From Deltaproteobacteria bacterium (GTDB taxonomy: Bacteria > Desulfobacterota > Binatia > UBA1149 > JAJCZL01), in assembly GCA_029262415.1 (NCBI GenBank), contig JAJCZL010000023.1, positions 1-46,086 on the forward strand: DNA of 46,086 nucleotides, in the 5' to 3' direction. The first letter of the stretch is position 1; each line of letters opens with the position of its first letter. The position numbers were made by a program, and so were the translations under genes. A model generated the notes under the pieces. The model was given only the letters and a program-made list of their open reading frames with translations, had not been told where the DNA came from and ran no database searches. This document shows positions 33,031-45,591 of the stretch, piece by piece.

Positions 33031-33575
33031 CACTCGTCCTTGCGCCTTTCGCTTAGTTTGCATAGTGCCTCAACGTCGGCGAGATCTTGAGGGCGCCCGG
33101 CGATCTGCTTCATCTCTATGAGGTCAGCGAGACACGCAACGCGAACTTGCGTGTGCTCAAGCTCTACCGTTTCAGCGCGTGACCAAAGTGCTGCGAAGTC
33201 TATCGGCGGTTCAACGAAGAGATCCACCTGTCGCATCGGGTTCGCAGGGTCGAGCATAGTGAAGACACTCATGTTCTTTTCGCGAACCCACTCGCCGCGC
33301 TTGTCCCGACTGGCGAATTCTTTGGCATCTACGGGGACACGCGGTCGCAGGCCCAGGTCGGTGAGGACATCGATTGTTTTTAGCGCCTGTTCTGGGGCGA
33401 GGTCGACGACGAGGTCGACATCGACCGTTAGCCGGGCGAATCCGTGTAGAACAACCGCGACCCCGCCGACCACAACGTATCGAACGTCTGCGTCGTTGAG
33501 TGCTTTGAATAGCGGTTCAAACAGCGCCACGTCGCTATGGTAACACGTCCGGGTGCGGGAAAGCAGTGTCTCCAT
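33030..33575 (-). CDS. Predicted nucleotidyltransferase (MNT/AbiEii-like)
   Basis: This protein of 181 residues has the polymerase-beta-like nucleotidyltransferase core. The VRYVVVGGVAVVLHGFARLT stretch carries the GG motif and VDVDLVVDLAPEQ holds the metal-binding Asp pair; a third acidic residue follows in MRQVDLFVEPP. The C-terminal LADLIEMKQIAGRPQDLADV (the KxxAGRxxDxxDL pattern) is typical of the AbiEii/DUF6036 group. Members act in toxin-antitoxin and abortive-infection systems, but many are uncharacterised. I chose the ATG at 33575, which has GAGG nine bases upstream; a GTG at 33530 is possible. It is divergent from apbE and followed by a one-base-overlapping small gene. Confidence 0.75.
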   Translation of the reverse strand: METLLSRTRTCYHSDVALFEPLFKALNDADVRYVVVGGVAVVLHGFARLTVDVDLVVDLAPEQALKTIDVLTDLGLRPRVPVDAKEFASRDKRGEWVREKNMSVFTMLDPANPMRQVDLFVEPPIDFAALWSRAETVELEHTQVRVACLADLIEMKQIAGRPQDLADVEALCKLSERRKDE

Positions 33576-33743
33576 CCCCCGGCACCTCTTTGCCCGCGAA
33601 AAACCGATGCGGATTCTCCTCGAGCACCATCGCGGTCTACCCGTCAGTCGCAGCATCTTCCTTTCTTTGGTTTTCGTGGAGAACCTATCGCTCTCGCTCT
33701 GGTGAACGTGGCGTTGTTGACGTGTGTGGCTATGGTGGGCGCG

Positions 33744-34751
33744 ATGCACTCGTCGAGACGCAGCTTGGGTTGGTCGTTGATGGTCTTGCTCATTCTCCTC
33801 GTTGCCGCGCTGAACTGCTCCCCCGGCGGCAGCCGGGTCGTACGCCGGTCCGCTGCCCACATGGGCACCGTGGTAACGATCAGCGTGGTGGCAACCAGCA
33901 AGAGTCACGGCGAGCAGTCGATCGACCGTGGTTTTGCCGAGATCGCGCGGCTCGAGCAGATGCTCAGTTCCTACCGCGCCACCAGCGTCTTGAGCCGCTT
34001 GAACGCAATGGCCGGCGCGGGCCCGGTCAGCGTTCCTGAGGAGTTCATCGAGCTTATTTTGGTTGCACAAGAAGTTGCGGCCTCAACCGGCAGTGCGTTC
34101 AACCCGCTCATGGGACCCGCCGTCAAGCTATGGGGCATACCGGAGAACCCCAGGGTGCCTTCCCCAGAGGCGCTCGAGGCATTGCGGCCGCTAACCGACC
34201 TTGCGGGGCTGTCGGTTATGCCGCAACGGGGGACCGTGGCGCTTTCGCGTCCCGGCATGGCCCTGGGGCTCGGTGGAATAGCCAAGGGCTACACCGCCGA
34301 TCGGGTCACCGAGATACTCAAGGGCCTCGGGGTTACGGGTGGTGTCGTAGCAATCTCCGGCGACGTCCGGGTGTTCGGTACACAGCCTGACGGGAGCCCT
34401 TGGCGGGTGGCGGTGCAAGACCCGGGGGGCGGCCCCGATCCGATCGCGGTTATTGAGATGAGCGGGGGCGCGCTTTCGACATCCGGAGACTACCAGCGTT
34501 TTTTCGAGCAAGACGGGATTCGTTATCACCACATCCTCGATCCGCGCACGCTCAGGCCGACGCGTGGATTGGCGAGTGTTTCAGTTCTTACCGCCGACGG
34601 TGTTCGTGCCGATGCCCTGGCGACGGCGGTCTTGGTCATGGGCGCCGTCGAGGGCTTGGCCTATGTCGAGGCCAGTGCGGGTGTCGAGGCCTTGTTTGTC
34701 GACCAAAACGGTCACCTGACCGCGACCAGCGGTTGGCCCAAGCGGCCTTGA
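33744..34751 (+). CDS. apbE: FAD:protein FMN transferase ApbE
   Basis: This enzyme attaches FMN covalently, through a phosphoester bond, to Thr/Ser of flavoproteins such as NosR or RnfG/NqrC. From the ATG at 33744 it has 335 residues. An N-terminal hydrophobic segment (LMVLLILLVAALNCS) acts as signal or anchor and could be a lipoprotein site, though ALNC is not a perfect lipobox. Family motifs follow: MGTVVTISV, LGGIAKGYTADRVTEIL, AISGDVRVFG, HHILDPRTLRPTRG and DGVRADALATAVLVMG, holding the Mg and FAD residues. Its place at the head of the nos genes, and the flavin-attachment motif in the NosR part of the fusion, make that protein the likely target. The start is uncertain (ATG at 33732 and GTG at 33705 are alternatives). 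Confidence 0.9.
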   Translation: MHSSRRSLGWSLMVLLILLVAALNCSPGGSRVVRRSAAHMGTVVTISVVATSKSHGEQSIDRGFAEIARLEQMLSSYRATSVLSRLNAMAGAGPVSVPEEFIELILVAQEVAASTGSAFNPLMGPAVKLWGIPENPRVPSPEALEALRPLTDLAGLSVMPQRGTVALSRPGMALGLGGIAKGYTADRVTEILKGLGVTGGVVAISGDVRVFGTQPDGSPWRVAVQDPGGGPDPIAVIEMSGGALSTSGDYQRFFEQDGIRYHHILDPRTLRPTRGLASVSVLTADGVRADALATAVLVMGAVEGLAYVEASAGVEALFVDQNGHLTATSGWPKRP

Positions 34752-35455: not shown

Positions 35456-36223
35456 ATGAGACAAATACCGCAATTTATTTTTGGACTTGCTGTCATCACG
35501 GTAGCGGGTTTGACACCGGCCGTCTCCGCGGCTCAGGATCACGCACAGATCGAAGTCGGCAGGAAAGTCTATGATAAGTACTGCGTCGTCTGCCACGGAG
35601 TCCAGGGAGACGGCAAGGGCCTCATGGGGGTCATTCACCGCGCGCAGAAGAACGGCATGGTGGTTTCTATCTACCCGCGGGACTTTACCGCGGGTATGTT
35701 CAAATTCCGCAGCACCGAGACCGGGTCGCTGCCTATGGACGAAGACCTGCTGAACACCGTCACCAATGGTATCCCACGCTCGGGAATGCCTTCTCATAAA
35801 GACGTCTCCCTAGATGATCGCAAAGCCGTGATCGAATACGTCAAGACGTTCTCCGGCAAGTGGGATGAGGCCGACCCTCCTGTTGCTATCCCAATCGGCA
35901 AAGCGCCGAGCTATGTAAGAACGGCTGAGTCGGCCGGGAGAGGGAAGAAACTCTACAATGAGTACGGCTGTTTCCAGTGCCACGGCGAGTTGGGCCGAGG
36001 CGATGGGCCGGCCTCTCCCAACCTCCAAGACAACTGGGGAGAACCGATCCTCGCCTTCGATTTCAGTTCCGGGCCGCTCAAGGGCGGAACCGAGCCGGAA
36101 GATATCTACAAGACCTTCGTGACCGGGCTGGATGGAACGCCGATGCCCTCGTTCGCGGATTCGCTCACCGAGAAGCAACGCTGGGACATCGTCTCGTACT
36201 GTCTCGTGCTGATGGAAAACTAG
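35456..36223 (+). CDS. Diheme c-type cytochrome, probable electron carrier for NosZ
   Basis: This is a periplasmic cytochrome c of 255 residues. A Sec signal peptide (about 1-26, ending TPAVSAAQ) precedes two cytochrome c domains. Heme 1 binds at C43-V-V-C46-H47 with M111 (SGMPSH) as the likely axial ligand. Heme 2 binds at C172-F-Q-C175-H176 with M230 (GTPMPSF). AGGGGGG lies upstream of the ATG. Similar diheme or monoheme cytochromes accompany nosZ in many clade II clusters and are thought to pass electrons from the quinol side to NosZ. That role is inferred here from position, 113 bases before nosZ. Confidence 0.88.
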   Translation: MRQIPQFIFGLAVITVAGLTPAVSAAQDHAQIEVGRKVYDKYCVVCHGVQGDGKGLMGVIHRAQKNGMVVSIYPRDFTAGMFKFRSTETGSLPMDEDLLNTVTNGIPRSGMPSHKDVSLDDRKAVIEYVKTFSGKWDEADPPVAIPIGKAPSYVRTAESAGRGKKLYNEYGCFQCHGELGRGDGPASPNLQDNWGEPILAFDFSSGPLKGGTEPEDIYKTFVTGLDGTPMPSFADSLTEKQRWDIVSYCLVLMEN

Positions 36224-36336: not shown

Positions 36337-38169
36337 ATGTACAAATATTCATTGATCAAGAACCTGCTTTCGCGTTGGACACTGCTCGCAATCGGATCGA
36401 TTGCCGTTGTTTTCGCCGCGTTCCTGATCGGCGGCGAGATGGCCCCACAAACGGTCGAAGCCCGTAGCGACGGCGCCCTTCGCACCAAGGTGCATCCCGG
36501 TGAGTTGGACGACTACTACGGTTTCTTCAGCGGGGGTCACTCCGGCGAGATCCGTGTGCTCGGCCTGCCCTCAATGCGAGTGTTGAAGCGTGTCCCGGTC
36601 TTCAATATCGATTCCGGAAGTGGCTGGGGTATCACCAACGAGAGTAAGGCACTCCTCGGCGGACTCTACGTTGGAGACACCCACCACGCGCACGGCTCCT
36701 ACAAGGATGGGACTTACGACGGCAAGTACCTGTGGGTAAACGACAAAGCCAATAACCGAGTGGCGCGCGTACGAATCGACTACCTCGAAACCGACGCAAT
36801 CATATCGATCCCGCATGTTCAGGGAACCCATGGGCTGTTCCCTCAGCGCTACCCGCAAACCGACTGGCTGATCGTGAACAGCGAGTTCCGCACGCCGCTC
36901 GTCAACGACGGCCGCGGTGACATAGCGGATGAGAGCAAGTACGGCGGCGTGCACACGGTGATCGACGCCAACACGATGGAGATCATCTGCCAGGTGATGG
37001 TTCCGACTAACCTCGACCTTGCCGCGACCGACTACCAAGGGAGATACTCGTTTGCGACCTCATACAACAGTGAAGGTGGCGCGACGATATCGGAGATGCT
37101 CGCCGCCGATCGCGACTACCTCGTGGTCTTCCACTGGGCGAGAATCAAAAAGGCGCTGGCGGACGGAGACTTCAAGGTTGTCGATGGTATCAAGATGCTC
37201 GACGGGAGCCCGGGATCCGACCTGACTTTGTACGTCCCCATCCCGAAGAACCCACACGGTGTCAACATCAGTCCCGACGGCAAATACGCCGTTGCTTCCG
37301 GCAAGGTATCACCGACCGCGAGCATCATCGCAATCGACAAGCTCGAAGCAGCCTTCAACGGCGAGCTGAGTCCCGCAGATACGGTCATCGGCGAGCCGGA
37401 GATCGGTTTGGGGCCGCTTCACACCACCTTCGATGGGCGAGGCAATGCGTACACGTCGCTTTTCATCGATAGCCAGGTCGTGAAATGGAACATCCAAAAA
37501 GCGATCGATATATACAAAAATCCGCAGGCAACCGATACGGCGGTAGTGGACCGCCTGGACGTCCACTACCAGGTCGGTCACACCATGGCGTCGATGGCCG
37601 AGACCAAGGAGGCGGATGGGAACTTCCTGGTCTCGCTTAACAAGATCTCGAAAGATCGTTTCCTGAATGTCGGGCCTCTCAAGCCCGAGAACGATCAACT
37701 GGTCGACATTTCCGGAAAGAAGATGGTGCTGCTCAAGGACGAACCGGCCTACATCGAGCCCCACGATTGCATCATAGTGCGAAGGGACATCATCGAACCC
37801 GTGGTCAAGCATCGCCCGCGCATGGATGAACATCCGCTGGCGACGACCGAGAGTTCGATCGAGAGAGACGGCAACAAGGTCACGGTACGTCTGACCGCGA
37901 ACGCTCCTGTATACGGCCTGCAGAAGATCGAAGTGAACGAAAAGGACGAAGTAACGTTCATCGTGACCAACAACGACGAGATCCCGGATCTCGGTCACGG
38001 GTTTGCAGTCTCGGATTATAACGTCAACTTCGTCGTCGGTCCGTTCCAGACCAAGTCGGTTACGTTTATCGCCGACAAGCCGGGCCTGCACTGGATCTAC
38101 TGTACGAACTTTTGCCACGCCCTCCATCTGGAGATGCGCATGCGTTTGATCGTGAAAGCCAAAGCGTGA
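36337..38169 (+). CDS. nosZ: Nitrous oxide reductase NosZ (Sec-exported, clade II-like)
   Basis: This is the periplasmic copper enzyme that reduces N2O to N2. It has 610 residues. The N-terminus is a Sec-type signal or anchor (hydrophobic about 15-33) with no twin arginine, which fits clade II rather than the Tat-exported clade I. The seven-bladed propeller holds the tetranuclear CuZ site; visible ligands include H116/H117 (GDTHHAHGSY), H165 (VQGTHGLFPQ), NPHGVNISPDGKY and GLGPLHTTFDG. The C-terminal cupredoxin domain holds CuA: C589, C593, H597 and M600 in YCTNFCHALHLEM. The ribosome binding site AAGGAGA is near-perfect. The adjacent genes encode its electron supply and maturation. No residue expected of the active sites is missing. 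Confidence 0.96.
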   Translation: MYKYSLIKNLLSRWTLLAIGSIAVVFAAFLIGGEMAPQTVEARSDGALRTKVHPGELDDYYGFFSGGHSGEIRVLGLPSMRVLKRVPVFNIDSGSGWGITNESKALLGGLYVGDTHHAHGSYKDGTYDGKYLWVNDKANNRVARVRIDYLETDAIISIPHVQGTHGLFPQRYPQTDWLIVNSEFRTPLVNDGRGDIADESKYGGVHTVIDANTMEIICQVMVPTNLDLAATDYQGRYSFATSYNSEGGATISEMLAADRDYLVVFHWARIKKALADGDFKVVDGIKMLDGSPGSDLTLYVPIPKNPHGVNISPDGKYAVASGKVSPTASIIAIDKLEAAFNGELSPADTVIGEPEIGLGPLHTTFDGRGNAYTSLFIDSQVVKWNIQKAIDIYKNPQATDTAVVDRLDVHYQVGHTMASMAETKEADGNFLVSLNKISKDRFLNVGPLKPENDQLVDISGKKMVLLKDEPAYIEPHDCIIVRRDIIEPVVKHRPRMDEHPLATTESSIERDGNKVTVRLTANAPVYGLQKIEVNEKDEVTFIVTNNDEIPDLGHGFAVSDYNVNFVVGPFQTKSVTFIADKPGLHWIYCTNFCHALHLEMRMRLIVKAKA

Positions 38170-38199
38170 ACGGATAGGTTGCCGGCGGGCGTGCTGGGA

Positions 38200-41100
38200 A
38201 TGATCGACTGCGTCGGGAAACGCCGCGCCGGGCCGCTGCGTTGGGTCCCGGCCGCGAGCGCGCTCGCCTTTGTGGTGCTCGCCACCGGTGTGGGGAGCAC
38301 GCTCCCGGTGCACGCCCAATCCATTTTCGGCGAACGTACCTACGCCTACCAGCCTTCCGACGTGCTTCCCGGAGCGCAAAGCTTCGCGAGAAAGGAGGGA
38401 TACTGGGAAGCCTACGGCAGCGGCGTCGGCAAGTCGCGGGAGCTGCTGGGGTATGTGTTCCTGACCGACGACCTGACCGAGATCCCAGGCTATTCCGGCC
38501 ACTCGCTCAATACCTTGGTCGGCATCGACCCTGAGGGCACCATCACCGGGGTCAAGATCGTCCACCATTCCGAACCCATCGTGCTGATCGGTCTGAGCGA
38601 GAAAGTCATCCACGATTTCGTTGCCCAGTACGTGGGCAAGCGAATCCAAAACCGCATCATCATAAGTAATACGCCGAGGGACGGCTATGTATCCCTCGAC
38701 GCGATTACCGGCGCGACGGTTACCGCAGTTGCCGAGAACGCTACTATCCTGGCGGCTGGGAGGCATCTCGGCAGAGCGGTCGGGATCTTAAAAGCGTCGC
38801 AGGTGCGCTCACGCAGACCCTCGGACCGCTTCGAGGAGATGGACTGGAAGGCACTCGAGGCGAGCGAAGCGATCGGGAAGATCGTGGTCGATCCGGAGGC
38901 CGTCGGCATGGCAACCGGAGTCTCAGCTCTCGAGCTCCGTTTCGCGGTGCTGGATGTGCCGGCCGTGGGCAGAAATCTACTCGGTGACCGTTTTTACACC
39001 AACGTTAGCGAACGCCTCGAGCGGCAAGGCGGAAGCGCCTTGTTCATTGGCGCGAGCGGAAGTCTCTCGTTCAAAGGAGCCGGCTTCGCGCGAGGCGGGT
39101 TGTTCGACCGCTTCTCACTCGAGCAGGCGGGCGATCTCTTTGTCTTCAAAGACGTCGACTACATCAACTTCCCAGCATTGCCGATCGAAGGGGCTCCCGA
39201 CTTCCGCGAAGGGGGAATCTTCTTCGTGAATGACGACCGCTTCGACCCTGCCGAGCAGTTCACGTTTCACCTGACACTGCCCTTCAGGATCCGCGACAAG
39301 CTAACGTACGGAAGCTTTCTGACGGATTTTCGCTTACCCGGTAATTTTGTCGAAGAAGAGGTCCCGTTCTGGCGCACTCGCTGGCAGCAGAGCGCTGCAA
39401 CGACGGTGACGTTCGCGCTCTTTATCGTAGCGGTCATGCTCGCCTTTGCGTTTCGACAGTCGTTGCTGGCCTACCGTAAGCCTCTCCATTACACCGTAGC
39501 CATCGTCGCAACCCTGTGGGTCGGCATCTATCTCAGAGCCCAGCCCAGCACGACACAGATCCTGTCACTGGCAACCTCGGCGGCTCAACTGCGTTTCCCG
39601 TACGAGATTTTCCTCTCCGAGCCGCTCATCTTCCTGTTCTGGATCGTGATTGCCGTGTCGCTCGTCGTCTGGGGAAGGGGATTTTTCTGCGGGTGGCTGT
39701 GTCCCTACGGCGCGCTGCTGGAGCTTCTCATCGGCCTCTGGCAGCGCATCTGCCCGCAAGCGTTACGACACCGGATCGATGCCTGGCACCCGGGACCGGT
39801 TTGGCGCAGTGGGAAGTACGTGACCTTTGTGGTCATTCTCTTGGTCGCCTTCGCCAATCTCCCGGCGGCCGAGGCCCTGGCCGAGGTCGAACCGTTCAAG
39901 ACCTTCATCCTTCGCTTGGCACGACCCAGCGCTTTCATTGCGTACTTCGTCATCGTAACCGCCCTATCAGCTGTCTCGTATCGGTTTTTCTGCCGTTTCC
40001 TATGTCCGCTCGGAGGAGCGCTGGCGATAGTCTCGCGCAGGCCGGCGGTTCCGCTTGTTCGCTACCAGCAGTGCACCTCCTGCAAGATCTGCTACCGAGG
40101 CTGCGAGCCGCAGGCGATTTCTAAGAGTACCGGGCGCATCGACTACCAGGAGTGTCTGCAATGTTGGGATTGTCAGGCGACGGGAAAAGACCAGGGCGTT
40201 TGTCCGGAGCTCATCCGCGCGCGGAAGGCGAACGTTGCGCCGAGATTCTTGGTCTCGGCCTTGATCTTGGCAACCACGGCAGCGCTGTGTCCGTCACCGT
40301 CTTGGGCGCGCACCCGAACGGTTAGTCCGGGAGACGGGGCGCTGAGCGCTGAGATTGCCGCAAGCACCGACGGCGATATCATCCTGGTTACGCCTGGGGT
40401 CTACACCGAGAACGTAGTCGTGGATCGGCGCGTCGCGATTATCGCGTCCGCTGGTGCCGTCGTGGACGGTGGGGGCAACGGCAACGTATTGGTAGTTGAC
40501 GCAGCGGGCGTGGTGGTTCAGGGCCTGACGTTGCGCGGCTGTGGAACCGACCCCGCGGTTTCGGAAGCGGGAATCCGGGTGGAACAACACGCGTCGCAAG
40601 TGCGGCTGCAGGGAAACCGCATCGAGCAGTGTCGTTTCGGCATCTGGATTCACGGTAGTGAAGGGGCCATGCTCATCGGGAATTCCGTTCAAGGAATGAC
40701 CGAAGTCACACGCAACGAACGCGGGGACTGCATTCATCTGTGGTCTGCACGAGGGGTAAAAATAACCGGAAACAGCCTCGCGGATTGCCGTGACGGAGTC
40801 TACATGGAACTGAGCACCGATTGTGAGGTAACCGGGAACACCATCGAGGATTCCCGGTATTCGGTACACACCATGTGGTGCGACCGCAGCGTATATAACG
40901 ACAACATCGTTTCCGGCAATTTTGTTGGGCTGGCGCTTATGTTCTCCAAACATATTCAGGCAAAGGGCAACACCCTCTATGACAACGCGACTCACGGAAT
41001 TCTACTCACCCAGGTGACCCGCAGCGAGGTATCCGGCAACAACATCATCGGCAACACCAAAGGATTGTTCGTTTACAATTCGCTGTACAACGTGATACGC

Positions 41101-41562
41101 GCGAACCTCGTCGCCCGCAACAATCTCGGCATGCACTACTGGGGAGGTTCCGAAGACAATGAGGTGGACGGCAACACGTTCGTCGAAAACGAGATCCAGG
41201 TGAAATTCATTGCCTCTCACGACCAGCAATGGAACGGCAATTTCTGGAGTGATTACGTTGGTTGGGATATGAACGGTGACGAGCGTGGTGATCTTCCCTA
41301 CCACTCCAATAGTCTGGCCGACTCATTCTTGTGGAAATATCCAGCGGCAAAGTTTTTGCTGGCCGGCCCCGCGCTTCAGCTGCTGGTCTTGGCCGAACGC
41401 GAGTTCCCGGTCATCCGAGTGCCCAAGGGTGTGGACGGTTCACCATTGATGGAGCCGGCGACGCTCGAGTGGGAATCTATACTCGCAAGTCACCCGCGAC
41501 GGCCCAAGGCCTACTATGGAGAACTCGCTAAGTTGCCGCATATACCCCAGGAGGGGCGATGA
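38200..41562 (+). CDS. nosR-nosD: NosR-NosD fusion protein: flavin/iron-sulfur electron donor joined to periplasmic maturation beta-helix
   Basis: One uninterrupted frame of 1120 residues joins two nos proteins that are normally separate. Residues 1 to about 680 are NosR. A signal peptide comes first, then a periplasmic FMN-binding domain with the attachment motif DAITGATVT (T173), then several transmembrane helices (about 402-595). Two CxxxCP motifs follow (C497/C501 in FCGWLCPYG; C598/C602 in CRFLCPLGG), and two cytoplasmic [4Fe-4S] motifs (C625, C628, C631, C635; C652, C655, C658, C668). Residues about 682-704 form a hydrophobic hinge (LVSALILATTAALCPSPSWA), looking like a NosD signal peptide kept inside. 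Residues about 705-1120 are NosD, a right-handed beta-helix of repeated units such as GNSLADCRDGVYMELS. Start choices are ATG 38200, GTG 38191 and TTG 38179. The stop overlaps nosF by four bases. Confidence 0.88.
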   Translation: MIDCVGKRRAGPLRWVPAASALAFVVLATGVGSTLPVHAQSIFGERTYAYQPSDVLPGAQSFARKEGYWEAYGSGVGKSRELLGYVFLTDDLTEIPGYSGHSLNTLVGIDPEGTITGVKIVHHSEPIVLIGLSEKVIHDFVAQYVGKRIQNRIIISNTPRDGYVSLDAITGATVTAVAENATILAAGRHLGRAVGILKASQVRSRRPSDRFEEMDWKALEASEAIGKIVVDPEAVGMATGVSALELRFAVLDVPAVGRNLLGDRFYTNVSERLERQGGSALFIGASGSLSFKGAGFARGGLFDRFSLEQAGDLFVFKDVDYINFPALPIEGAPDFREGGIFFVNDDRFDPAEQFTFHLTLPFRIRDKLTYGSFLTDFRLPGNFVEEEVPFWRTRWQQSAATTVTFALFIVAVMLAFAFRQSLLAYRKPLHYTVAIVATLWVGIYLRAQPSTTQILSLATSAAQLRFPYEIFLSEPLIFLFWIVIAVSLVVWGRGFFCGWLCPYGALLELLIGLWQRICPQALRHRIDAWHPGPVWRSGKYVTFVVILLVAFANLPAAEALAEVEPFKTFILRLARPSAFIAYFVIVTALSAVSYRFFCRFLCPLGGALAIVSRRPAVPLVRYQQCTSCKICYRGCEPQAISKSTGRIDYQECLQCWDCQATGKDQGVCPELIRARKANVAPRFLVSALILATTAALCPSPSWARTRTVSPGDGALSAEIAASTDGDIILVTPGVYTENVVVDRRVAIIASAGAVVDGGGNGNVLVVDAAGVVVQGLTLRGCGTDPAVSEAGIRVEQHASQVRLQGNRIEQCRFGIWIHGSEGAMLIGNSVQGMTEVTRNERGDCIHLWSARGVKITGNSLADCRDGVYMELSTDCEVTGNTIEDSRYSVHTMWCDRSVYNDNIVSGNFVGLALMFSKHIQAKGNTLYDNATHGILLTQVTRSEVSGNNIIGNTKGLFVYNSLYNVIRANLVARNNLGMHYWGGSEDNEVDGNTFVENEIQVKFIASHDQQWNGNFWSDYVGWDMNGDERGDLPYHSNSLADSFLWKYPAAKFLLAGPALQLLVLAEREFPVIRVPKGVDGSPLMEPATLEWESILASHPRRPKAYYGELAKLPHIPQEGR

Positions 41563-42449
41563 TTCGGCTGGCGGGTGTTTCGAAGAGGTTCGGCCAAGTC
41601 GAGGCGCTACGGCAGCTGGATCTGGAGATTCGCTCGGGCGAATGGCTCGGAGTGTTCGGGCACAACGGCTCCGGTAAAACCACGTTGATCCGGACCATCG
41701 TCGGCCTTTCTAAGCCGAGCAGCGGACAGCTCACGCTTGACGGAAAGTCGCCGACCCAGAAGGACTGGCGCATCTTTCGCCGCAAGCTCGGGTTTATGCC
41801 CGAACGAGTGTCTTTCTACGAGCATCTTACCGGGGCGCAGACGCTGCGGTTCTTCTGCCGGCTTCGCGGTCTTGACGATAAAGTCGTTGCACCCATGCTG
41901 GAGCGCGTTGGACTCGCGCAAGCCGCCGGTCGAAAGATCGGCGGGTATTCCAAGGGAATGCGGCAGCGACTGAACCTCGCACAGGCGCTGCTCGGAGACC
42001 CCGAGATCCTGATCTTGGACGAACCTATTGAAGGCCTCGATCCCCGAGGCGTGCGTGATTTCTTTCAACTGCTACGATCCGGCGCAACCGGCACTGTGGT
42101 GATGTCTTCGCACCGGCTTTCCGAGGTTTGCGACCAGGTCGATCGCGCATGCGTCCTTGTTGACGGAGAATCGAAGGCACTGGGGAGCGTGGATGAGATT
42201 TGTGAGAGCCTCGCCCTGCCGGTTACGGTTTATCTCTACCCAACCCAACCGTTTAACGGAACGTTGCGAGCCGCTCTTAGCGACTTGGGTGCCTCATCGG
42301 TGCTCCAACGTACCGATGTTCTGGTGGTTGAGGTTTCTCAGAGAAACAAGACGGTGTTCCTGATGGGCCTGCACGCCCATCGGCAAGCGATCCGGCACGT
42401 TCGTGTTCAAGAGCCAAGCATGGAGAGGGCTTTCTTTGATATCCCGTGA
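41559..42449 (+). CDS. nosF: NosF, ABC transporter ATP-binding protein for NosZ copper-site maturation
   Basis: This is the cytoplasmic ATPase of the NosDFY complex, which supports CuZ assembly. It has 296 residues: Walker A GHNGSGKTT (34-42), Q-loop region near FRRKLGFMPERVSFY, signature SKGMRQRLNLAQ (131-142), Walker B LILDEP (151-156) and the switch histidine in VVMSSHRLSEV. The C-terminal 80 residues form an accessory domain. The ATG overlaps the fusion gene's TGA, so translation is coupled. The call as NosF rests on position plus family; the sequence itself fits any CcmA-type ATPase. Confidence 0.93.
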   Translation: MIRLAGVSKRFGQVEALRQLDLEIRSGEWLGVFGHNGSGKTTLIRTIVGLSKPSSGQLTLDGKSPTQKDWRIFRRKLGFMPERVSFYEHLTGAQTLRFFCRLRGLDDKVVAPMLERVGLAQAAGRKIGGYSKGMRQRLNLAQALLGDPEILILDEPIEGLDPRGVRDFFQLLRSGATGTVVMSSHRLSEVCDQVDRACVLVDGESKALGSVDEICESLALPVTVYLYPTQPFNGTLRAALSDLGASSVLQRTDVLVVEVSQRNKTVFLMGLHAHRQAIRHVRVQEPSMERAFFDIP

Positions 42450-43272
42450 CGCAGTTCTCAGCATCGTCGGCAAGGAGCTGGGCGATGGTCTTCGCAACCG
42501 CTGGATCTGGACCGTCTCCGCCCTGATCGCTACGTCGGTACTTGCCATCGCTTTCTTCGGCGCGGCTCCGGTTGGTGTAACCGGTAGGCAGGGTGGGGGC
42601 GTTGTGATTGCGAGCCTAGTGAATTTGGCCGTTTACTTGGTCCCGTTGCTGGCGCTCCTGCTTGGTTGCGGCGCGGTGATCGACGAAAAACAGCGTGGGA
42701 CCCTCGACCTCATCCTCGTCTATCCGATCTCACTCGGCGAATACTTTTCAGGCGCGTTCCTTGGATTCGCATTGGCCCTGACGATCGCCATTGCGGTGGG
42801 CTTTGGAGTGTCCGGGATCGTTCTCATGTCGTGGTTCGAGATCGAGGTGGGCGCGTATCTCGGTCTCGCCGGATTGGCCGTCGCGCTGGGTGTCGTCTTC
42901 TTGTCGCTCTCATTCCTCGTCTCGATCGCCGCTAGAGATCGTAGTAGGGCTGTTGTTTCGTTGGTATTCGTCTGGATCTTTTCGGTGTTTGTGTTTGACC
43001 TGCTGCTGCTCGGGCTGCTTGTCGTTTCCGGCGGCGAGCTTCCGGCCGCTTTGTTCAGCACGCTTCTTCTCATGAACCCGACCGATGTGTTCAGGCTCCT
43101 CTGTTTCAAGTGGATAAGCGGGGTTGCATCTCCTTTGGGGCTGACCACCGCGATGCCGTTCGTCCCGTCGACACTGCTGCTTGGGGTGGCGCTGTTGGCC
43201 TGGGGAGCGCTTCCGCTTATCGTTAGCTACAGTCTGTTCCGCCACCGCGTTGCCAACGAGACGCTGACTTAG
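42436..43272 (+). CDS. nosY: NosY, ABC transporter permease
   Basis: This membrane partner of NosF has 278 residues from a TTG at 42436, which is preceded by GGAGAGGGC. A GTG at 42403 in the same frame would add 11 residues; both overlap nosF. The typical N-terminus VLSIVGKELGDGLRNRWIW is followed by six hydrophobic helices. The conserved loop GAVIDEKQRGTLDLILVYPI, with ISLGEYFSGAFLG after it, is the coupling region of ABC-2/NosY-type permeases. It would transmit ATP use by NosF to the periplasmic NosD domain. The protein is slightly hydrophobic throughout and complete at both ends. Confidence 0.9.
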   Translation: MISRDAVLSIVGKELGDGLRNRWIWTVSALIATSVLAIAFFGAAPVGVTGRQGGGVVIASLVNLAVYLVPLLALLLGCGAVIDEKQRGTLDLILVYPISLGEYFSGAFLGFALALTIAIAVGFGVSGIVLMSWFEIEVGAYLGLAGLAVALGVVFLSLSFLVSIAARDRSRAVVSLVFVWIFSVFVFDLLLLGLLVVSGGELPAALFSTLLLMNPTDVFRLLCFKWISGVASPLGLTTAMPFVPSTLLLGVALLAWGALPLIVSYSLFRHRVANETLT

Positions 43273-43306: not shown

Positions 43307-43954
43307 ATGAAGAACCTATCCAGTCTCGGATTGCTCGCGGTTTTCGTAGCCCTGGTCGCCGTCGACTCGGCCGACGCCGGCACGTTGCGAGGGCGCGTCG
43401 GCGGCATTGCTAAGAATGAGGCGGCGGTGGTTTGGGTTGAAGGCATCTCGAGTGGTGAGGTGCCGAAATCCGATACTGTGATCACGCACATCTCGGGCCG
43501 CTTCCAACCCACGGTGAGCATCGGCTTTGTAGGCAACTCATTCGTGTTTCGCAACGACGACGACACGCTTCACAACACCCACTTGTACCTCGGCCTCGCC
43601 TATCAAGAAGAGCGCTCCGGACGCCCGCTCCACTATGGGGCCACGCTTTACAATGTGGCGTTGCCGAAGGCCGGCGCAGAAGTGCGGAAACCGATAAAGG
43701 CGTATCACCGTTACCGCCGCGACACCGGATTCATCGAAGTGGTTTGCAACCCGCACCCCGGCGAGCGAGCCCATGTCCTGGTGTTCGATCATCCATACGC
43801 CGCGGTCACCAACAACGACGGCACATTTTCGATCCCCGATCTCCCGCCCGGTAAACATCCGGTGAAGGTGTGGGCGGCCGCCTCTGTGAAGGAATGGGGT
43901 GTCGTGGAGATCAAGGAAGGGGCAGCGACCGACATCATCATCAACGGGGATTAG
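43307..43954 (+). CDS. Exported cupredoxin-like protein in the nos cluster
   Basis: This periplasmic protein of 215 residues has a signal peptide (1 to about 24, ALVAVDSADAG). The middle resembles a plastocyanin-type fold with possible copper ligands: H89 in FRNDDDTLHNTHLY, C147 with H150 in VVCNPHPGERAH. The following VFDHPYAAVTNNDGTFSIPD and LPPGKHPVKVWA resemble a carboxypeptidase-regulatory-like beta domain. Proteins with this pattern occur near respiratory oxidases and copper enzymes, but no specific function is established. It lies 35 bases after nosY with AGAGG before the ATG and just before the SCO gene, so a copper-binding or electron-carrying role is reasonable. Ligand assignment is by pattern only. 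Confidence 0.7.
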   Translation: MKNLSSLGLLAVFVALVAVDSADAGTLRGRVGGIAKNEAAVVWVEGISSGEVPKSDTVITHISGRFQPTVSIGFVGNSFVFRNDDDTLHNTHLYLGLAYQEERSGRPLHYGATLYNVALPKAGAEVRKPIKAYHRYRRDTGFIEVVCNPHPGERAHVLVFDHPYAAVTNNDGTFSIPDLPPGKHPVKVWAAASVKEWGVVEIKEGAATDIIINGD

Positions 43955-43961
43955 GCTACCT

Positions 43962-44540
43962 ATGCAGCGCAAGCGAACGATGGTGTCCGCCGCAGTAACG
44001 GCAACCGTGCTCGTCGTGGTGTTCTACTGCGTGGTGTCGTTGACCGGCACATCGGCTGCGGCCATGCCTGAGTTCGAACTTACGAACTGGGATGGAAGCA
44101 AGGTCTCGACGGCGAGCCTGGTTGGAACGAGGTCCATTTTAGCGTTCACTTTTGCCAAGTGCGTGTTCGGCTGTCCGATGATCACCCAGCAGCTGAAAAC
44201 CCTCGACCGCGAACTCGGCAGTCCTCCCGATCTCAAGTTTCTGCACATTTCCGTCAATCCTGCCGAGGATACACCCGAGGAGATTCTCAAACACTTTGCA
44301 AAGCACGATATCGACCCGCGCCGCGATCAACGCTGGCTGTTTCTTACCGGTTCAGACGAAGAAACTGCAGCGGTTCTGAAAGACTTTGGAATCGAGGTAC
44401 GACGCAGGCAGATGGAAGACGGCGAACTCGTCGAGCACACCATTAAGGTCGTGGTTGTCGATCCGACTGGTAAGCCGACTGTGACTTTCGATACCTTTCA
44501 CTGGGAGGCAGAGGAGATGTTACGTGCTCTACGATCGTGA
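43962..44540 (+). CDS. SCO1/SenC-family copper chaperone
   Basis: This is a membrane-anchored, thioredoxin-fold protein of 192 residues that delivers copper or handles thiols at CuA sites. Helix 10-27 anchors it. The copper-binding CxxxC is C67/C71 (FAKCVFGCPMI), and the distal ligand is H159 (LVEHTIKVVVVDP). NosZ has a CuA centre like that of cytochrome oxidase, so SCO here most likely metallates NosZ. I chose the ATG at 43962; the frame is open into the previous gene. Its end overlaps the next gene by 17 bases. The redoxin-domain layout (FELTNWDGSKVSTASLVGTR) is complete. Confidence 0.88.
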   Translation: MQRKRTMVSAAVTATVLVVVFYCVVSLTGTSAAAMPEFELTNWDGSKVSTASLVGTRSILAFTFAKCVFGCPMITQQLKTLDRELGSPPDLKFLHISVNPAEDTPEEILKHFAKHDIDPRRDQRWLFLTGSDEETAAVLKDFGIEVRRRQMEDGELVEHTIKVVVVDPTGKPTVTFDTFHWEAEEMLRALRS

Positions 44541-45591
44541 AGCGACGCTGAGCCGACGCGCTTTCCTGCGATTGGCGACCTACGGAGGATCGGCGCTGCT
44601 GGTCCTCGGCCGCCACATCCGACCACTATACGCCGGCGCGCCCGAGCTCTCGCGTCTCAGCAGTATGGAGTTCGACGTTACTTACAGGACGGAGATCTAC
44701 GATCTTCCCCAGCGTGCAAAGGACGTGCATGTTTGGATGCCGCTACCGCCGGCCGGCAACGCCCAAGACGTTACAAACCTGACCGTTACCTCCGATTTGC
44801 CGCATTGCATCGAGAAAGAGCAGACCTATGGGAATAGGTTGGCGCATCTGCGCACAGAACGGACGGACGACGCGTTTGCTCTTGAGGCCCGCTATCACGT
44901 GCTGCGACGCCGCATCGGCGCAACCCCTGCACTACTCGATGCCGAGTCGGCTGAGAAGTACCTGCGACTGACCTCTCGCGTACGGGTCACCGACGAAGTC
45001 GATACATTTACGCGCAAAGTCGTCGGCGATACACGGCGTGCTCTCGAAGTCGGTGAGAAAGTGTTTACCGCCATCACCGAGTTGCTGACCTACGACAAGG
45101 AGATACCCGGCTGCGGCACCGGCGACACCGCGTGGATCATGAAACACCGACGCGGAAAGTGCGACGACTACCACGCCCTCTTCATGGCGATGATGGTCTC
45201 TCGGGGGATTCCCGTGCGCTGGGAACAGGGATTTCCGCTACCTCAACCCACGGGTGAAGATGCGCTCTCCGGGGGACTGAGCGGGGATTGTTCAGGGGCC
45301 CACTGCTGGGTCAGTTTCTACGATCCTGAACTCGGCTGGATACCGGTAGACGTGTCGGAGGCGGACAAGCACCCCGATATGCGCAAATTCTTTTTTGGTC
45401 AGCTGACGCCGAATCGGTTCCAAGTCTCCGAGGGACGCTCGATACTCCTCAAACCACAGCAGGGAGGTGACGCCTTAGAGACATTTGCGTTTGCCTACGC
45501 CGAAGCTGATGGAATTCCTCTCATCTACGACGCGAATTACCGCAACGTAATTCACTTCACGATCACCAACTTCACGGCGTCCGATCTATGA
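44524..45591 (+). CDS. Tat-exported transglutaminase-like protein
   Basis: This exported protein of 355 residues has a twin-arginine signal (LSRRAFLRLATYGGSAL, R11/R12). Next comes a beta-rich domain (about 46-130, VTYRTEIYDLPQRAKDVHVW), then a transglutaminase/cysteine-protease core with a full catalytic triad: C213 (RRGKCDDYHALF), H260 (GAHCWVSFYD) and D276 (GWIPVDVSEA). Extra cysteines (C95, C197, C256, C261) could bind metal or form disulfides. Transglutaminase-like proteins of this type act as peptidases or amidases in the envelope; no role in N2O reduction is known to me. It starts with GTG inside the SCO gene and overlaps the next gene by four bases, so it belongs to the same transcript. 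Confidence 0.8.
   Translation: MLYDREATLSRRAFLRLATYGGSALLVLGRHIRPLYAGAPELSRLSSMEFDVTYRTEIYDLPQRAKDVHVWMPLPPAGNAQDVTNLTVTSDLPHCIEKEQTYGNRLAHLRTERTDDAFALEARYHVLRRRIGATPALLDAESAEKYLRLTSRVRVTDEVDTFTRKVVGDTRRALEVGEKVFTAITELLTYDKEIPGCGTGDTAWIMKHRRGKCDDYHALFMAMMVSRGIPVRWEQGFPLPQPTGEDALSGGLSGDCSGAHCWVSFYDPELGWIPVDVSEADKHPDMRKFFFGQLTPNRFQVSEGRSILLKPQQGGDALETFAFAYAEADGIPLIYDANYRNVIHFTITNFTASDL

Follow-up and report, generated by a model that had tools for sequence, protein, structure and literature searches.

The stretch of DNA analyzed here (the window; 46,086 nucleotides, contig JAJCZL010000023.1 of assembly GCA_029262415.1) carries a nitrous oxide reductase (nos) operon in which the gene adjoining nosZ is a single open reading frame, here called nosRD, that encodes both NosR and NosD (Table 1). 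The surrounding genes follow a conserved order of cytochrome, nosZ, nosRD, nosF, nosY, orf215, SCO and transglutaminase-like protein, and the product of an upstream apbE gene is a plausible flavinylator of the NosR module. The orf215 and transglutaminase-like genes are members of this nos operon that are kept across phyla.

Table 1. Features of the fused nos operon, in window coordinates; residue numbers are those of the 1120-residue NosR-NosD product.
Feature	Position	Strand	Evidence and remarks
apbE, flavin transferase	33537..34751	+	PF02424 283.8 bits
c-type cytochrome, two haem-binding sites, upstream of nosZ	35456..36223	+	PF00034 two stretches; conserved context
nosZ, clade I-type by HMM, without Tat signal	36337..38169	+	TIGR04244 827.6 bits (cut-off 625) vs TIGR04246 496
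nosRD, fused NosR-NosD frame	38200..41562	+	1120 aa from ATG; TTG at 38179 adds 7 residues
NosR N-terminal export signal, residues 1-39, VHA/Q	38200..38316	+	A39/Q40 >=90% conserved
FMN-binding domain; Thr173 (codon 38716-38718) in DAITGAT, predicted flavinylated	38488..38733	+	PF04205 30.8 bits; T173 invariant
First membrane CGWLCP motif, C497-P502	39688..39705	+	invariant Cys
Second membrane CRFLCP motif, C598-P603	39991..40008	+	invariant Cys
Two 4Fe-4S cluster motifs, C625 to C668	40072..40203	+	cytoplasmic by NosR homology (PMC7660919)
Junction, putative internal NosD export signal, residues 673-703: charged stretch, hydrophobic stretch, A-x-A-type site SWA/RT	40216..40308	+	
NosD beta-helix module, residues 704-1120	40309..41559	+	TIGR04247; 7o0y_A; fold match 7osf_A
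nosF, ABC ATPase	41559..42449	+	ABC families; conserved context
nosY, ABC permease, start codon uncertain	42403..43272	+	PF12679 84.7 bits
orf215, weak CarboxypepD_reg similarity	43307..43954	+	conserved in operon
SCO1/SenC-type copper chaperone	43899..44540	+	PF02630 78.1 bits; conserved
Transglutaminase-like protein	44524..45591	+	PF01841 64.9 bits; conserved in operon

The frame contains no internal stop from either start (1127 or 1120 residues), and both halves are recognized by protein family models, bearing out the preliminary description of one frame holding a complete NosR and a complete NosD. Residues 53-676 match the NosR model NF046105 with 436 bits, and because this lies below the curated cut-off of 1000, we regard this half as a divergent NosR that is NosR-like by its modules; the FMN-binding domain and two Fer4_5 stretches score above the Pfam cut-offs. 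Residues 715-1085 match the NosD model TIGR04247 (394 bits, cut-off 300) and PF05048 (159 bits, cut-off 23.6), and the NosD half also matches the solved NosD of the NosDFY complex by sequence (7o0y_A, E 7e-72) and by fold (7osf_A and 7o0y_A). All expected cofactor motifs are present, as first proposed, and in an alignment of 11 intact fusions the predicted flavin and cluster sites are invariant, comprising the flavinylation motif D-x-I-[ST]-G-A-T with T173, the pair C497xxxC501P and C598xxxC602P, and the 4Fe-4S motifs C625xxCxxCxxxC635P and C652xxCxxC658-x9-C668P. A structure prediction from 17 alignment rows models the NosD half well and the membrane part and joint with low confidence, and we claim no geometry for the joint.

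The intact fusion was found in 12 genomes of uncultured bacteria: that of the window, two class-mates, six Acidobacteriota, one Krumholzibacteriota and two members of a small phylum. The nearest relatives, at 67, 60 and 60% identity, carry it in one frame in independent assemblies, the two class-mates being at 67 and 60%; the refuting condition named at the outset, two separate genes in every close relative, thus does not hold. With an uninterrupted frame in all 12 genomes, which come from separate assemblies, we consider the fusion real. We scanned 84,980 species genomes with only two peptide patterns typical of the family, so that independent fusions elsewhere may have been missed; the scan returned 13 loci with both halves. 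In ten of these NosR and NosD share one frame (L045 is cut by a contig end), and in the remaining three, from Nitrospirota, only the membrane half of NosR is joined to NosD. A whole-genome search added a further Acidobacteriota fusion (genome G427). Its occurrence among sampled genomes is patchy (4 of 396 Acidobacteriota, 1 of 80 genomes from the Krumholzibacteriota group, 2 of 395 from the phylum of the window, and 2 of the 8 from the small phylum that holds L038 and L046), which suggests horizontal transfer. Two further candidates with apparent open frames of 1431 and 1322 residues for both halves (G089 and G549) were rejected as fusions, there being a stop between the genes.

The tree set holds 12 distinct intact fusions (the window, L037, L102, L038, L039, L040, L041, L042, L043, L046, L047 and L103), where L037 belongs to the same genome as L017/G144, L102 to the same as L018, and L042 is complete except for the final residues, lost where the fetched contig ends. 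On a tree of three modules these 12 rows form one clade (SH-aLRT 100), whose sister group consists of 15 Nitrospirota rows (support 100). In the Nitrospirota operon the FMN part of NosR is a gene of its own, and the membrane part is fused to NosD in eight loci and separate in seven. The fused and separate states are intermixed on the module tree, with which the NosZ tree agrees, and the sister pairs L104/L112 and L107/L113 differ in join state. This join has been made or lost at least three times, a modest claim because some draft-genome splits could be frameshift errors; L106, for example, differs by one in-frame TAG. Relatives that have the order Z-R-D without the fusion include Cupriavidus, one member of the Acidobacteriota and one class-mate of the window, so that fusion of neighboring genes offers a simple route to nosRD.

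In three Nitrospirota loci the FMN and membrane parts of NosR are divided by an in-frame TAG (L044:7036-7038, L048:7036-7038 and L049:7039-7041), just downstream of which lie a TTG and AGGGG, and we read them as two genes. Reassignment of this conserved TAG was considered and rejected, since TAG ends several other genes in the same operons and same-frame neighbors are expected by chance. No description of a split NosR was found in the searchable open-access literature. The joint of L048, a membrane part-NosD fusion, is longer than those of L044 and L049 and contains repeat-like letters (SSPLAGEDQGGGD...PHPDLPPSRGKG), which may stem from an inserted element that is translated in frame.

The segment at which NosR and NosD meet was missed as an export signal in the preliminary description. 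It runs from the last cluster cysteine through a charged stretch, about 19 uncharged residues and a small-x-small site to the start of NosD. By this layout it is an export signal kept from NosD, ending in an A-x-A site of the signal-peptidase type. We compared 20 fused loci (12 fully fused and eight membrane part-NosD), placing the -1 position by eye in sequences that are related, so that the counts carry no real chance probabilities. The -1 residue is small in all 20 (A in 15, G in three, S in two) and the -3 residue is A or S in 16, with poor residues in L042 and L103 (Ile) and L043 (Pro), while -2 is free (5 of 20 small) and -4 is small only once. For NosR's own N-terminal signal the corresponding figures are 11 of 11 at -1 and 9 of 11 at -3, and for separate NosDs 9 of 9 and 6 of 9. 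The uncharged stretch has a median of 19 residues in the fused joints (range 15-26), compared with 21 in the NosR signal and 17 in separate NosDs. By these measures the site is as strong in the joint as in NosR's own signal peptide. A703 is the sole invariant residue between I672 and the A/G725 region (11 rows); the conserved A, and the T found at +2 in 16 of 20 loci, might instead be part of the NosD fold, at its beginning. The two sister pairs named above have the same kind of signal whether NosD is fused or separate. With pN/pS of 0.33-0.70 in five pairs and indels of whole codons, the joint evolves as translated sequence and faster than the rest, as signal peptides do.

In P. stutzeri NosR the C-terminal domain is cytoplasmic and the FMN domain periplasmic (PMC7660919). 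Because NosR ends in the cytoplasm and NosD is periplasmic, one more membrane crossing is required, and a segment suited to it is present at the joint. We lean toward the reading that the nosRD product is one precursor, cut by signal peptidase I at the joint into NosR and NosD. The frame would yield a single precursor within a clade I-related nos operon; translation would finish NosR with its cytoplasmic Fe-S domain, after which the internal signal would re-cross the membrane and carry NosD into the periplasm, with signal peptidase I usually cutting after the A-x-A site. The products would be a membrane NosR, delivering electrons to NosZ, and a periplasmic NosD, which would work with NosF and NosY to mature the copper site; the two would be made 1:1 and in the same place. 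In the Bradyrhizobium fbcH product, a fused cytochrome b-c1 precursor, a redox protein of the membrane precedes a periplasmic domain that has an internal signal sequence, and cleavage of this precursor is established. The layout of nosRD is the same, although the proteins are unrelated and cleavage of the nosRD product is a proposal.

A lasting tether is a serious possibility: the internal signal would escape cleavage and serve as an additional membrane helix, so that a single protein of 1120 residues would connect the FMN/Fe-S electron donor with the NosD of NosDFY. An uncharged stretch of that length could hold, as 19 residues suffice for a membrane anchor; the join has repeatedly arisen or been retained and is still present in the eight Nitrospirota loci with a split NosR; and proximity is plausible, given that NosR of P. 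aeruginosa has been detected together with NosZ and NosL, with NosF in the same network (PMC5658584). However, a signal-peptidase-like site is retained in nearly all fusions, and seven Nitrospirota loci with the same operon manage without the join. We place cleavage somewhat ahead of a lasting tether. According to the preliminary description, the fusion would physically link the transporter with the electron donor, but given the conserved export signal at the joint and its signal-peptidase-like site, NosR and NosD may be separate once mature. Its further claim that the fusion gives a direct reason why both proteins are needed for NosZ activity overreaches: the join is absent from canonical relatives and from 7 of the 15 Nitrospirota loci with the same operon, and the two roles can be separated in P. 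denitrificans and P. stutzeri, with NosDFY serving CuZ assembly and NosR reported to be dispensable for assembly of the copper centers (PMC7660919). In known denitrifiers NosR probably delivers electrons after flavinylation by ApbE/NosX (PMC7660919). Most simply, the fusion couples the synthesis and location of NosR and NosD, with a direct mechanical link possible. It seems to us rather unlikely that NosR and NosD stay permanently tethered and, together with NosF and NosY, form a single membrane machine for electron delivery and NosZ copper-site maturation, one that does without NosL and serves a NosZ that lacks the Tat signal and is in part lipid-anchored.

An internal start that yields extra NosD, with the fusion only partly used, is improbable: in-frame ATG, GTG or TTG codons lie near the joint in most loci, with weak 4-nt Shine-Dalgarno cores in L038, L041, L044, L046, L049 and L105, but no core longer than 4 nt occurs near the fused joints and none at all in the window, and the start positions are not conserved. 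In L112 and L113, where NosD has a gene of its own, the core is 6 nt long. Finally, although the window comes from an 83-contig draft assembly, an assembly artefact or sequencing error that erased a stop between two ordinary genes can be dismissed, the frame being intact in the nearest relatives and the other genomes that carry it.

The fused operon is closest to the clade I nos cluster, with which it shares a TIGR04244-type NosZ, a NosR with FMN, CxxxCP and 4Fe-4S modules, and NosDFY. The gene order Z-R-D-F-Y is common to the window and to Cupriavidus necator pHG1 (Z-R-D-F-Y-L), the Pseudomonas order being R-Z-D-F-Y-L. Canonical relatives such as Cupriavidus keep nosR and nosD as adjacent separate genes, which agrees with the initial premise that the two are normally separate, whereas here they form one frame, and a NosD of the same sequence family and fold as that of NosDFY/NosDFYL (PDB 7o0y, 7osf) is joined N-terminally to NosR in the precursor. 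In Cupriavidus-type NosR (874-893 residues; L050:4842-7463 and L100:5021-7699) the Fe-S domain is followed by an additional long hydrophobic extension at the C-terminus. The fused operon further differs from the clade I cluster in the conserved SCO, orf215 and transglutaminase-like genes, in the absence of a Tat signal on NosZ and, mostly, in the absence of NosL.

No Tat signal was found at the NosZ N-terminus in any of the 12 members of the fused clade (36337-36450 in the window), while Nitrospirota NosZ with readable N-termini have Tat signals. A lipobox-like cysteine occurs in five of the six Acidobacteriota fused members and about half of the clade (e.g., LSFGC, LLLGC, AIGC), and in L043 an RRDL lies upstream of the lipobox signal. 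The change in Tat signal falls on a single branch of the tree, so that dependence on the fusion cannot be shown. Export of a Tat-less NosZ is common to the fused clade and to clade II, where NosZ uses Sec-type rather than Tat export (PMC11409646); clade II clusters, however, have nosB and no NosR, and in the NosZ tree the window is set apart from the clade II-type rows at 100 and groups with clade I. NosL was found neither in the genome of the window nor in 12 of 13 other genomes searched, three of these Nitrospirota; it is present in the genome of L037 and in other Nitrospirota loci. The operon-conserved SCO-type chaperone might replace it. The fused clade is an unusual NosR-containing, Tat-less nos cluster, mostly without NosL.

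NosZ destroys the greenhouse gas nitrous oxide, and NosR and NosD are its helper proteins. We found no description of a NosR-NosD fusion in the searchable open-access literature, consistent with the preliminary description, which knew of no case; an earlier report or database entry is possible. The role of NosR and its relation to NosDFY are still debated, and with the two proteins joined here and several intermediates in Nitrospirota, that relation becomes directly testable. As a rule, NosR goes with a Tat-exported NosZ and NosL. The fused lineage breaks this rule, and surveys of N2O reducers by signal type and accessory genes may therefore misclassify or overlook it.
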